A stretch of 32,591 nt of DNA, from contig JBDKTO010000049.1 in assembly GCA_039680175.1 (NCBI GenBank), positions 1 to 32,591 on the forward strand. Reading direction: 5' to 3'. How positions within the stretch are numbered: the first letter of the stretch is position 1; each line of letters begins with the position of its first letter. The notes beneath the pieces were generated by a model, which worked only from the letters and a program-made list of their open reading frames with translations, was not told where the DNA came from and did no database searches. This stretch comes from Veillonellales bacterium. Lineage in GTDB: Bacteria > Bacillota > Negativicutes > JAAYSF01. Below are positions 7,812 to 27,423 of this stretch, piece after piece. A program made the translations under genes and the position numbers.

Positions 7812-7860
7812 TTAGCTGGTATCCCCGATACGGGGGAACCGTATCGGGGATACCAGCTAA
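7812..7860 (+). promoter_or_regulatory. Perfect 22-bp hairpin, first of an overlapping pair
   Basis: The arms 7812-7833 and 7839-7860 are perfectly complementary with a 5-base loop (GGGAA). Its last six bases (AGCTAA) are also the start of the next hairpin's left arm, so both cannot form fully at once. This is the layout of an antiterminator/terminator switch or of back-to-back terminators. Confidence 0.55.
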
Positions 7861-7910
7861 AGATCCCTATCAAATTTTTACAAAATTTGATAGGGATCTT
7901 TAGCTTTTTG
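7855..7910 (+). terminator. Perfect 24-bp hairpin followed by a T-run, upstream of the kinase gene
   Basis: The arms 7855-7878 and 7882-7905 are perfectly complementary over 24 bp with a 3-base loop (TAC), followed by TTTTT. This is a strong intrinsic terminator on the + strand, ending about 90 bases before the kinase start. It competes with the preceding hairpin for the shared AGCTAA. Confidence 0.7.
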
Positions 7911-16900: not shown

Positions 16901-17794
16901 TTATAGTTGAACACACTTTAGCCCAAATTTTGTCATAAGTTCTAACCAATTCTTAACTGGTAGCTCATTTATTTTATTGGCATTAACCGCTAGGTAAGTT
17001 TCCCATTTTGGCGGTAAATTAGGTCCGATAAGTGGAATTTCGATAAGTGTCTTGTTATTTAATTCATTTGCTACAGAGGATCTGTTTAATATTGCCGGCC
17101 CCAGGCCCTGCTTTACTAAAGAAAGAATAATGTATGCAGGATCAATTTGGGCTTGAAATAAGTGATTTGCCGGTAGTACTTCATTAATCCACTTACTGAA
17201 TGGCCCAGACCAATTGTGATATAAGAGATTAATATGGGATAATTCTTCAACGGGAATGGAAGGACATTCTGCTAGAGGATGATTGGGATGGACAACTAAA
17301 ACGAAATCATCTTCATGACAGGCAAATACGTTAAAACGATTTAATCTTGGTGGTTGATAAACTATAGCAAGGTCTATTACGCCATCTACTAATAATTGTA
17401 TTATTTCTGATGAGTGCCCTGTTGTTGCTTTAAACGATATCTGCGGATACTGTACTAGATATTCTTTGAGGACTGGGAATAGGAGGTTACGCCAAATTGA
17501 ATCTACACTGCCAATAACAAGACGCCCTTCGAAGGGAATAATGGCGTTGGCTTTAGTTTTGCCTTCCTCGTAAAGATGAAGCATTCTTTCTGCGTAAGGC
17601 AAAAATACACTTCCGGCTTCCGATAACTCAACCTTCTGTTTAGTTCTTAGAAAAAGCTGTTTGCCAACAGCTTTTTCTAATTCCTGAATACGGGTTGTAA
17701 CTGTAGACTGAACAATATGCTGTAATTCTGCAGTTTTTGAGAAGTTTTTTGTTTGGGAAAGGATCATTAAGGTTCGCAATAACTCAATTTCCAA
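16901..17794 (-). CDS. LysR-family transcriptional regulator, TTG start
   Basis: A 297-residue LysR protein. The helix-turn-helix 'TKNFSKTAELQHIVQSTVTT' is near the N terminus and the effector-binding domain follows from about residue 90. I start it at TTG 17794. On the minus strand, AGGAGGTGATC, nearly a full complement of the 16S rRNA 3' end, lies 8 bases or less upstream, and the resulting N terminus 'LEIELLRTLMILSQTKNFSK' aligns with the family. A GTG at 17803 lies inside that ribosome binding site. It is divergent from the DcuA/B carrier gene at 17927 and is its likely regulator. The 132 bases between them hold a small dyad. Confidence 0.87.
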   Translation of the reverse strand: MEIELLRTLMILSQTKNFSKTAELQHIVQSTVTTRIQELEKAVGKQLFLRTKQKVELSEAGSVFLPYAERMLHLYEEGKTKANAIIPFEGRLVIGSVDSIWRNLLFPVLKEYLVQYPQISFKATTGHSSEIIQLLVDGVIDLAIVYQPPRLNRFNVFACHEDDFVLVVHPNHPLAECPSIPVEELSHINLLYHNWSGPFSKWINEVLPANHLFQAQIDPAYIILSLVKQGLGPAILNRSSVANELNNKTLIEIPLIGPNLPPKWETYLAVNANKINELPVKNWLELMTKFGLKCVQL

Positions 17795-23760: not shown

Positions 23761-23779
23761 GCGGAGAGGATTGGGGCTT

Positions 23780-24967
23780 ATGGTAAAAATTTTAGGCGGC
23801 ACGGAAAAAATATATAATAAAGCTCTATTAACTGGAGGATTAGCGCATTTTATGCATGATGGAGTTACCGACATGCTGTATGTCTTTTTTCCAATATGGC
23901 AAGCCCAGTTTTCGCTGACATTCACTGAGATCGGTTTTTTGAAAACCCTTTTTTCAGGCACTATGGCCGGTTTTCAAGTACCGTCAAGTTATCTGGCTTG
24001 CCGAATAGGAGGAGTTCGGTTGCTGGTACTGGGGACAGTACTTACAAGCGTTTCCTTATTCCTGTATGGGTGGGCACCAACGCTAGTAGTTTTAGGCTGT
24101 TTACTTATTGCAGGAGGATTAGGCTCAAGTGTACAGCATCCATTATCTTCGTCGCTAATTTCTAACGCTTATCCTGATAATGATGCGCGAAGAGTTGCGC
24201 TGAGTACGTTTAATGTGGCAGGTGATATCGGTAAGCTGCTTTTGCCGGCTGGAGCTTCCTTAATAATAAGTCGGTATAGTTGGCAGGCTGCAAGTCAGGT
24301 TATGGGGATAGTGGGTATAGGAATAGCAATTCTTCTTTTTATAAACAGTAAAAATATAATCTATCAGAATGCCCGGCCAGAAAGTGCAAAACGAGCAAGT
24401 AAATCAATGGTATGGAAAGCAAGCAAAGGCTTTTGGGCTTTGTTAATAATAGGAATGATTGACAGCAGTACGAGAATGGGATTCTTAACTTTTTTCCCTT
24501 TTGTGCTGCAAGATAACGGGGCGGTGGTGACGACAATCGGGTTAGCGCTGTCTCTCATATTTGCTGGGGGCGCTATGGGCAAATTTGTCTGTGGTCTGCT
24601 AGCTACAAAAGTTGGAGTACTCCGGTCGGTCATCATTACGGAGATACTCACATCGCTTTGCATTTTGGGTATGCTCAGTTTTTCATTACATGTTGAAATA
24701 ATGCTGTCTTTGCTTCTCGGGGTGGCCTTAAATGGTACTTCTTCCGTACTTTATGGCAGCGTTCCGGAATTGGTACCGGAAGGAAATAGACAGCAAGCTT
24801 TTGCGATATTTTATACAGCAACGATTGCTTCGGGAGCATTCTCGCCCTGGTTGTACGGAGCTGCAAGTGATATTATCGGAATAAAAGCATCTGTAGTATT
24901 GATAGCGCTAGTGGTATTGTTTGTTATTCCGCTAACCATACCAATCAAGAGAAACCTTGTTTGGTGA
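23780..24967 (+). CDS. MFS transporter, fosmidomycin-resistance (Fsr)-like
   Basis: The 395-residue protein has 12 membrane segments. The start 'GGLAHFMHDGVTDMLYVFFP' and 'LGSSVQHPLSSSLISNAYPD' are typical of the Fsr-like branch of the major facilitator superfamily, whose members export drugs or small organic compounds. I take ATG 23780, 11 bases after GGAGAGG; a TTG at 23771 is too close to that site. It forms an operon with the preceding LysR gene. The substrate cannot be read from the sequence. Confidence 0.83.
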   Translation: MVKILGGTEKIYNKALLTGGLAHFMHDGVTDMLYVFFPIWQAQFSLTFTEIGFLKTLFSGTMAGFQVPSSYLACRIGGVRLLVLGTVLTSVSLFLYGWAPTLVVLGCLLIAGGLGSSVQHPLSSSLISNAYPDNDARRVALSTFNVAGDIGKLLLPAGASLIISRYSWQAASQVMGIVGIGIAILLFINSKNIIYQNARPESAKRASKSMVWKASKGFWALLIIGMIDSSTRMGFLTFFPFVLQDNGAVVTTIGLALSLIFAGGAMGKFVCGLLATKVGVLRSVIITEILTSLCILGMLSFSLHVEIMLSLLLGVALNGTSSVLYGSVPELVPEGNRQQAFAIFYTATIASGAFSPWLYGAASDIIGIKASVVLIALVVLFVIPLTIPIKRNLVW

Positions 24968-25025
24968 TCCCTTTTGACAAAACGGATGGCTAATACCTTT
25001 ATTAGCGCTTTGACAGGAGTATTTT

Positions 25026-25070
25026 TTATATAGCCATAAAGTTGACACTTCAACTTTATGGCTATATAAT
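25026..25070 (+). promoter_or_regulatory. Consensus sigma-A promoter inside a 44-bp palindrome, upstream of MarR-GNAT
   Basis: TTGACA (25042-25047) and TATAAT (25065-25070) match both sigma-A consensus boxes exactly, with the ideal 17-base spacer. They lie within a perfect 20-bp inverted repeat (25026-25045 and 25050-25069, 4-base centre CACT). The -35 box spans the centre and the -10 box is in the right arm, so a dimeric repressor on this palindrome would cover the whole promoter. The MarR gene just downstream is the obvious repressor candidate. Confidence 0.75.
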
Positions 25071-25124
25071 TTAGTTGAAATATCAATCAATTAAAATTGC
25101 TATGGAGGGGTTAAGATTATTAAA

Positions 25125-25580
25125 TTGGAAAATGAAGTACTTCGAGAAGTAGGGTCGTTGGCTCGTTGTATTCAGTCTATAAGTGATATTAAATATCGCC
25201 AAATTAATTTAAAAAGAGGTCAATTTGTTTTTTTAACTCGTATTTGCGAAAATCCGGGTATCAGCTTAATTGAACTTTCCAATATTCTCAGGGTAGATAA
25301 GGCAACATCAACTAAGGTAGTACAAAAGCTGATGAAAGAAAATTATGTTTTAAAAGAACGTAATGATGAAGATAAAAGGGGATGGCATTTGTTTCCTTGT
25401 GGCAAAGCACAAGAGATTTACCAATATATTATTCAAGAAGAGAATCGGAATATTGAAATATGTTTTACGGGATTAAGTATAGAAGAAAGAGATACAGTTT
25501 ATCGATTACTTAAGCGGATGAGTGAAAATATTGAACATGATTGGAAGGAACTCAAACATTATAAGGGCGAGTCAAAATAG
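25125..25580 (+). CDS. MarR-family transcriptional regulator
   Basis: A 152-residue winged-helix protein: a dimerising N-terminal helix, then 'GISLIELSNILRVDKATSTK' as helix-turn-helix and 'LKERNDEDKRGWHLFPCGKA' as the beta wing, then C-terminal dimer helices. MarR proteins bind palindromes and usually repress their own operon until a small molecule binds. The start is uncertain: TTG 25125 gives 'ENEVLREVGSL' but lies 14 bases after GGAGGGG (25104-25110). An ATT codon at 25116 or 25119, in the same frame, is better placed. The promoter-palindrome at 25026-25070 is its probable operator. The GNAT gene follows after 16 bases in the same operon. Confidence 0.85.
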   Translation: MENEVLREVGSLARCIQSISDIKYRQINLKRGQFVFLTRICENPGISLIELSNILRVDKATSTKVVQKLMKENYVLKERNDEDKRGWHLFPCGKAQEIYQYIIQEENRNIEICFTGLSIEERDTVYRLLKRMSENIEHDWKELKHYKGESK

Positions 25581-25596
25581 GACAGGAGGAAATAAA

Positions 25597-26088
25597 ATGG
25601 GAGAAGTTCTAATTACAAAATATACTGACAAATACAGGGAAGATGTTATTGATTTAATTCTCAGTATTCAGCAAAAAGAATTTAATATTCCTATAACAAA
25701 AGAAGATCAGCCTGACTTAAGCAATATAGCCAATTTTTATCAATCAGGGGATGGGAATTTTTGGATAGCTCTTAATAACGGTCAGGTCGTTGGGACGATT
25801 GCATTAATCAATCTAGGAAACCATCAAGGGGCATTGAGAAAAATGTTTGTCAAGGCTGCTTTTAGAGGAAGTAGATATAATGTGGCAAAATCATTATTGC
25901 ACCAGTTAATGATATGGTCTAGCGAGCATGATCTTTATGAAATTTATTTAGGAACTACAGAAAAGTTCCTAGCGGCGCATCGTTTCTATGGAAAGAATGG
26001 TTTTGTACAAGTAAATAAAGTGCTATTGCCAGAGACTTTTCCTATTATGCAAGTTGATACAAGTTTTTATAAACTTAAAATTGAATAA
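25597..26088 (+). CDS. GNAT-family N-acetyltransferase
   Basis: The 163-residue protein shows the acetyl-CoA-binding region 'FVKAAFRGSRYNVAKSLL' (the Arg/Gly loop of GNAT motif A) and 'AAHRFYGKNGFVQV' (motif B, with Tyr as possible general acid). It transfers an acetyl group from acetyl-CoA to an amine of an unknown substrate. ATG 25597 follows AGGAGG (25584-25589); upstream in-frame codons overlap the MarR gene and are not needed. As second gene under the MarR promoter it is probably the induced function, for example detoxification of an amine compound. It ends 18 bases from the convergent protease gene. Confidence 0.85.
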   Translation: MGEVLITKYTDKYREDVIDLILSIQQKEFNIPITKEDQPDLSNIANFYQSGDGNFWIALNNGQVVGTIALINLGNHQGALRKMFVKAAFRGSRYNVAKSLLHQLMIWSSEHDLYEIYLGTTEKFLAAHRFYGKNGFVQVNKVLLPETFPIMQVDTSFYKLKIE

Positions 26089-26106: not shown

Positions 26107-27189
26107 TTATTTGAGCGGGGCTATACAACTTAGAATGTCTATCCAGCTATTATTACTTGCAAACGACAGTGCGTCGTAATATGGCTGGAACCGCATGTAC
26201 TGAGTGAAATGATTAGGCAAGTAGATGCTGGGGCCCATTTTTCGATTTTGGATGAATTCGTTTAAGACCGGATAAAAAACAAATTCTGACAATACGTTTT
26301 CAATGCTTTTACAGCAGGTATCGGCTTTGACGAGATTGGCATCAGCTTGTTTTATTAAGTCTTGCAAGCTGATGAGTGCAGACGGTTTTGTCGATAAGCC
26401 GGGTAATTTTTTAAGTAATTTATTATCAAGTATTAGTATAGCCAGGTTATTGATTAATGCTTTCAGCACTATAAAAATTTTTGGAGCCAGCGAAATGGCG
26501 AAAAGGGCAGTATCCAAAGGAAATTTTAGATTAATGGATTGAACTATATTTTTGACAGATGTCTTCACACTATATTTACTTGCTTCATTGCTGATAAGTA
26601 AATTGATGAGAGCATGCCAAGGCAACCCTTGCATGGGGGGATTTTCCTGTGGTACTATCAAATATTTTACGCAATGTCCGGCTAAAGCCAATTCATACCA
26701 AATTTCCACTAAATTCATATAGCAAGTATCAAATACCATAATGTCAATGCTTTTTTGTGTTTGTGTGTAAAAAGAGGATAGTGCCTGGACAAATTCCCGG
26801 ATACTTATTAGATCTATTATTTCGCGGCCGCAATCCATCATTATCCCGGCAAATCCTGCGCTATGCCCGCACATGACCAGCATAAGGCGATTGGCGGTAA
26901 ATTGCGAATATCCCCATAGTAAAAATTCAATAAAGGATGTTGCTTTTCCCATATTGGCGCAGCCCAGGGAATCACTTAGAGCGAGCCAGCCGTTTTTGCT
27001 GATATAACGCCGCGAATCTCGCTGCGCGGCGTTATTTTCCTGCACTTTTCTGCCGAACTGAGCCGCAACATTTATATTCGGAGGAATTCTGATGTTTTGC
27101 AGAACTTTGAATTGTTCTGCCAAGGTTTCTTCCAGGTCATTATTTCCTGCAATATACAGCAGCACAGTCCACTGATCAATCGTTGCCAT
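26107..27189 (-). CDS. Clostripain-like cysteine peptidase (family C11)
   Basis: The 360-residue protein begins 'QWTVLLYIAGNNDLE', the usual C11 opening. The catalytic dyad is His in 'MLVMCGHSAGF' (H109) and Cys in 'VFDTCYMNLVE' (C156). C11 peptidases are Arg/Lys-directed caspase-fold enzymes (clan CD), usually self-activated by internal cleavage. I start at ATG 27189, 11 bases after GGAGGT on the minus strand; an in-frame start at 27222 lies upstream of that site. No signal peptide is seen, so it appears cytoplasmic, unusual for clostripain itself but common among C11 relatives. The divergent neighbour at 27424 encodes a glycine-rich protein, a possible partner. Confidence 0.85.
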   Translation of the reverse strand: MATIDQWTVLLYIAGNNDLEETLAEQFKVLQNIRIPPNINVAAQFGRKVQENNAAQRDSRRYISKNGWLALSDSLGCANMGKATSFIEFLLWGYSQFTANRLMLVMCGHSAGFAGIMMDCGREIIDLISIREFVQALSSFYTQTQKSIDIMVFDTCYMNLVEIWYELALAGHCVKYLIVPQENPPMQGLPWHALINLLISNEASKYSVKTSVKNIVQSINLKFPLDTALFAISLAPKIFIVLKALINNLAILILDNKLLKKLPGLSTKPSALISLQDLIKQADANLVKADTCCKSIENVLSEFVFYPVLNEFIQNRKMGPSIYLPNHFTQYMRFQPYYDALSFASNNSWIDILSCIAPLK

Positions 27190-27423
27190 AGTATTTATTA
27201 TACCTCCGGACAGTATGGTCAACTTCGCTTTTACCGTTGAAAAGCACGGTAGTTTATTTGCTTATAAGGATTAGTTATGTAAAAGCGGGGCTTGATATAT
27301 TTCTATTCAACATGGCCGGCATAAGTGCCCCCAAAAATCGCAGCAGCAAGAATTGAGGTCTCAGGCCAATTTACGAGCATATAATGTAAAAGTGAAAATT
27401 TGCGATAAAGGGCGGATTACTGG

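Follow-up and report, generated by a model that had tools for sequence, protein, structure and literature searches.

We propose that the long palindrome upstream of a marR-GNAT gene pair in the window (the whole 32,591-nucleotide stretch of Veillonellales DNA that was analyzed) belongs to an ordinary autoregulated promoter with two operators, O1 and O2, of which O1 has been extended in this lineage, likeliest by a template switch; we put the probability of this reading at about 0.7. The promoter region is very probably the operator of its own MarR protein, as judged by comparison with orthologues, where a palindromic operator with predicted MarR binding, in the form of O1 and O2, overlaps marR's own promoter. 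The features of the locus are collected in Table 1.

Table 1. Features of the marR-GNAT locus, with positions in the window
Feature	Position	Strand	Basis or remark
MFS transporter gene, upstream of marR	23771..24967	+	Co-directional with marR
Perfect inverted repeat, 20-nt arms, 4-nt center CACT	25026..25069		Window sequence
Operator O1 core AGTTGACACTTCAACT, putative MarR recognition unit	25040..25055		Conserved in orthologues
-35 box TTGACA, within O1	25042..25047	+	Exact match; promoter scan; orthologues
-10 box TATAAT	25065..25070	+	Exact match; promoter scan; orthologues
Operator O2 AGTTGAAATATCAATC, putative	25073..25088		9/10 core positions; O1-O2 centers 33 bp apart
Shine-Dalgarno GGAGGGG	25104..25110	+	Sequence
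Inferred non-canonical start ATT of marR	25116..25118	+	Homologous codon in orthologues
marR-family repressor gene	25116..25580	+	Pfam PF01047, 1.8e-11; orthologues
GNAT acetyltransferase gene, ATG start	25597..26088	+	Pfam PF00583, 7e-13

The operon and its promoter

The repressor carries a MarR winged-helix domain that scores 44.2 bits, above the Pfam gathering cut-off of 24.6. Its stop codon is separated from the GNAT ATG by 16 nt, and in 27 of the 49 orthologues with 40% identity or more, a GNAT gene follows marR. On this layout, repressor and acetyltransferase form a predicted two-gene operon with a self-controlled promoter. The upstream MFS gene ends 58 bp before the palindrome, and a convergent gene of the clostripain family (Peptidase_C11; 26107-27222, minus strand) adjoins the GNAT gene downstream.

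An earlier note on this DNA had described a 44-bp perfect inverted repeat with a 4-base center, and the sequence bears it out: the arms, at 25026-25045 and 25050-25069, are 100% complementary in a 20+4+20 layout. The exact TTGACA-N17-TATAAT that it reported is likewise present at 25042-25070, is the sole exact match in the window, and scores 12/12 in a promoter scan. Its placement of both boxes inside the repeat holds in part, in that the TTGA of the -35 box lies in the left arm, but the following CA lies in the center and the final T of the -10 box (25070) falls outside the right arm; for that reason the end given in the note, 25070, is one base beyond the palindrome. By our own arithmetic, at ~0.26 per pair for 40% GC, the chance of the 14 extra pairs outside the 16-bp core is ~6e-9 per site. 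The window has further long inverted repeats at 1755-1808, 7855-7905, and 17647-17680; the one at 7855-7905, with a T-run after its stem, resembles an ordinary terminator.

A short operator conserved among orthologues

We collected MarR orthologues from 380 same-class genomes and 398 genomes of the phylum and compared their upstream regions; class searches around two further genomes produced no new MarR orthologues. The element shared by these regions is GTTGA-N4-TCAAC, which precedes nearly all MarR orthologues of at least 40% identity, usually in two copies corresponding to O1 and O2. O1, present in 39 of 49 such orthologues, covers the -35 box, and O2 sits between the -10 box and the Shine-Dalgarno sequence, around +1. 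The spacing between the two centers is mostly 37 bp, with a range of 32 to 41 in other species. Moreover, the -35 hexamer starts one base inside O1 in every one of the 39 orthologous promoters; it is exactly TTGACA in 23 of them, and in most cases the -10 box follows after 17 nt. Four of the 39 loci (the window, which is L003, together with L034, L004, and L045) reach 12/12, and thus the window is not alone in having a consensus promoter.

The identification of this promoter as that of a MarR-GNAT operon is upheld, as both the promoter and the short core are found again ahead of orthologous genes. The search upstream of marR homologues that the earlier note had suggested as a check recovers the promoter and the short core, but the sequence of the outer arms is not conserved. 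The tight repression that the note expected of so strong a promoter is plausible.

The exact 16-bp O1 core occurs once in the species' own 4.08-Mb genome. On both strands of that genome, 16 one-mismatch sites were found against 10 for the control, a count so near the control that we claim no further regulon targets. Among distant orthologues (e.g., L064 and L157), the half-site shifts from GTTGA to TTGC alongside divergence of the protein, a possible case of co-evolution between operator and recognition helix.

Symmetric arms without sequence conservation

Outside the core, each lineage has its own arm sequence, yet symmetry within a species is far above chance. In a flank-swap test, which took its expectation from left flanks paired with right flanks of other species, extension scores of at least 8 were observed at 16 of 79 sites against 0.13 expected, and scores of at least 10 at 14 of 79 against 0.05. 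For O1 only, 7 of 39 sites scored at least 10, compared with 0.08 by flank swap. This amounts to ~14 independent long-arm cases if L005/L006 and L047/L048 each count once. Long arms occur at O1 in the window, L045 (19+4+19), L018 (with one mismatch, next to the core), L005/L006, L013, L014, and L042, and at O2 in L034, L035, L038, L042, L047/L048, and L025. L058, which has a single site, holds by eye a 58-bp perfect palindrome of two 29-nt arms without a center that spans the operator and the likely -10 box and extends to the Shine-Dalgarno sequence. Around 80% of sites lack long arms, and since most show little or no extension, it is evidently not required.

A second orthologue lineage, which we take to be Paenibacillaceae, uses a different half-site, TTGC-N4-GCAA, and long arms are rare in it (4 of 133 sites at a score of at least 11, against 0.09 expected). 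As a control, 30 CIRCE sites from the same class, with their 9-nt loop, displayed no flank symmetry, indicating that not every kind of palindromic operator acquires such extensions. Scans for the Rex-like patterns TTGTGA-N6-TCACAA and TTGTTAA-N4-TTAACAA matched at about the chance rate and were uninformative as controls. Elsewhere in the species' own genome, a 37-bp palindrome (CATATAATATTTTACAATTTATGTAAAATATTATATG; L109 on contig C70, 2076-2112) contains TATAAT and lies just upstream of an ORF that by eye resembles spoIIE; it may be another extended operator.

Origin of the arms

A template switch can perfect or create the arms of an inverted repeat in one event, leaving compensatory changes on both sides (PMC7202029, PMC8794818). 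We give roughly even odds to such hairpin-templated mutation as the maker of the arms described here. Symmetry beyond chance combined with lineage-specific sequence (16/79 and 4/133) is what template-switch products would look like, and the sporadic occurrence of long arms, with most sites lacking them, is the pattern expected of sporadic events. Because arm sequences differ between species, sequence-specific binding does not account for them.

Individual loci provide suggestive evidence that one arm has been rewritten. In L157, the right arm is unlike that of its relatives; it matches the mirror image of the L157 left arm at 14 of 15 positions, compared with 9 to 11 for the right arms of the relatives. 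The left-arm motif is also carried by the relatives, although the left arm aligns to them only with indels. L194 and L198 have a common right arm and different left arms. A further trace that fits a template switch is the compensatory T:A/A:T swap that distinguishes L047 from L048. For the window species itself, no close relative with the marR gene was found in the class and phylum collections searched, and consequently its copying event cannot be polarized. Promoter-specific selection may also contribute to the symmetry, in line with the negative CIRCE control. The literature that we searched held no report of template switching at bacterial operator flanks, and searching it by operator motif sequence returned only noise.

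Other readings of the palindrome

The earlier note had allowed that the palindrome might fold in RNA. From the position of the -10 box, transcription would start at ~25077, within O2; if it does start there, ~7 nt after the box, the left arm lies upstream of the start and marR mRNA cannot fold it, and so we rejected a hairpin in that mRNA. Folding would be possible only in a transcript that reads through from the MFS gene upstream. The outer arms might have been selected as a hairpin that ends or insulates MFS read-through, making the site a combined operator and terminator, a reading that we consider unlikely. The folding energy does speak for it, as a read-through RNA of 24968-25090 forms a hairpin of -38.7 kcal/mol (z -6.7), and so does a terminator-like flag for the palindrome in a scan that found no other terminator between MFS and marR. 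Also, among co-directional loci, a separate terminator is absent from all five that have long O1 arms but present in 12 of the 25 others, a weak association (Fisher p 0.066). Nevertheless, the 20-bp stem, with 5 G-C pairs, is followed by a poor U-tract (tail TTTAGTTGAA), and O2 arms are extended as well. Moreover, the upstream gene is divergent in L005, L006, L013, and L058, where no insulation is needed and the arms are still long; with these four loci, a terminator or insulator fails as a general cause.

The 44-bp length had led the earlier note to see a double-length MarR site that could hold two dimers. MarR promoters do often hold two sites (PMC9892617), but most orthologues have the 16- to 18-bp core alone, which is the usual size for a MarR site and forms the center of the palindrome, and the second dimer would have a site of its own at O2, downstream. 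With outer-arm sequence unconserved between orthologues, we rejected two dimers on one long site, and an extended operator for two or more dimers is very improbable. Least credible is selection of the symmetry for a divergent, leftward promoter under the same repressor: by eye the minus strand does offer TTGAAG and a mirrored -10 box in TTGAAG-N17-TATAAA (9/12 to consensus), but this site is absent from the promoter scan listing, the upstream MFS gene lies on the plus strand so that there is no divergent gene here, the spacer is mirrored too, which a promoter does not need, and O2 extensions create no such promoter.

Start codon of the repressor

Repressor translation likeliest initiates at an AUU or another isoleucine codon, as evidenced by a comparison of 41 orthologues with 47% identity or more. 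In the window, the ATT at 25116 stands 7 nt after GGAGG, and no in-frame ATG, GTG, or TTG occurs from the upstream stop to the TTG at 25125. The homologous codon is isoleucine in 27 of the 41 orthologues, written ATT (14), ATC (10), or ATA (3), and ATG in 5; most of the remainder carry ATG or GTG one to two codons downstream. An isoleucine codon that follows a Shine-Dalgarno sequence and alternates with ATG between orthologues has the pattern of a non-canonical start.

The TTG at 25125, at codon 4, is a common start codon and was the choice of the ORF caller, and a start there would mean that the repressor is translated normally. That is unlikely too: this codon lies ~16 nt after GGAGG, and although it encodes leucine in all 41 orthologues, in 22 it is written CTA, TTA, CTC, or CTT and is unable to start translation normally. 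Furthermore, from the upstream stop through codon 4, canonical starts are wholly absent from seven of the orthologues that have isoleucine at the start position; for L038, one first appears at codon 52. The isoleucine start is less clear for a few orthologues (e.g., L050, L045, and L019), in which an in-frame upstream ATG or GTG overlaps or precedes the Shine-Dalgarno sequence. In five loci (L007, L008, L036, L009, and L037), a very small ORF in another reading frame, ATGACNGATTAA, lies just upstream of the marR start and overlaps its ATT, a possible sign of termination-reinitiation coupling.

A model for regulation and operator growth

In the model that we favor, MarR would bind as one dimer at O1, where the TTGA of the -35 box comes from the operator half-site, and as another at O2, around the transcription start. 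Bound MarR would exclude RNA polymerase until a ligand releases it. MarR would not need the outermost 14 bp of either arm for recognition; these form a symmetric extension specific to the lineage. The extension most likely arose as DNA synthesis, within a hairpin that formed at the operator core, changed template and used one arm to copy the other; in the window the left arm is the likelier copy because the right arm contains the working spacer and the -10 box. The AUU start would keep the yield of repressor below that of GNAT from the same strong promoter.

A broader version is more tentative, and we rate it somewhat below an even chance. It holds that operators of this MarR-GNAT family seed repeated template-switch growth of long, perfect palindromes through the promoter and that the conserved AUU/AUC/AUA start throttles the repressor, leaving a consensus-strength promoter that would be silent when repressed and biased toward GNAT when induced.

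Significance

A long palindrome is often interpreted as a sign that the protein site is larger or that there are several. In this case, comparing orthologues distinguishes a short, conserved operator from symmetric arms whose sequence changes with each lineage. This pattern is consistent with a mutational origin, and it opens the evolution of operators by template switching to testing. If true, the isoleucine start, which most orthologues share, would bring a repressor found across a class into the small set of bacterial genes that begin with AUU, AUC, or AUA, and it would mean that gene callers mis-start marR. A strong repressible promoter combined with a throttled repressor would favor GNAT output on induction.

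Comparison with known systems

The arms share with quasipalindrome correction both arm perfection and two-sided compensatory changes (PMC7202029, PMC8794818); the published cases are E. coli mutation reporters and RNA genes, whereas here the flanks of a bacterial operator are concerned. Known isoleucine starts include those of infC and pcnB (AUU), ccpN (AUA), and cvfC1 (AUU), of which the last two are backed by ribosome profiling, with a yield ~10% of that from AUG (PMC13009471). All resemble the present case in combining an isoleucine start with a strong Shine-Dalgarno sequence and reduced yield, the latter predicted for marR, and CcpN is also a repressor (PMC13009471). Unlike them, the gene described here encodes a MarR repressor, is the first of its operon, and has a start predicted from comparison.

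The closest solved sequences are the MarR structure 5eri, to which the protein aligns over almost its whole length (6e-53), and the SlyA-like 4mnu and 1lj9; the titles of these structures name no operator or ligand. For the operator, the nearest system is MexR of Pseudomonas aeruginosa, acting at PI and PII of mexR-mexAB. Both proteins belong to the MarR family, both systems have inverted GTTGA half-sites and autoregulation, the latter predicted in the present case, and MexR too has two adjacent sites overlapping its promoter (PMC9892617). However, the half-sites are 4 bp apart here and 5 bp apart in MexR, MexR is a weak match at the protein level (7e-6), and the target is a GNAT gene instead of an efflux pump. 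MexR sites are also highly asymmetric outside the palindrome (PMC9892617), in contrast to the symmetric arms seen here. The operator would thus work like the MexR type without being a member of it. Overall, this is a known kind of regulatory site, unusual in the recurrent symmetric growth of its flanks and in the conserved non-canonical start of its repressor.
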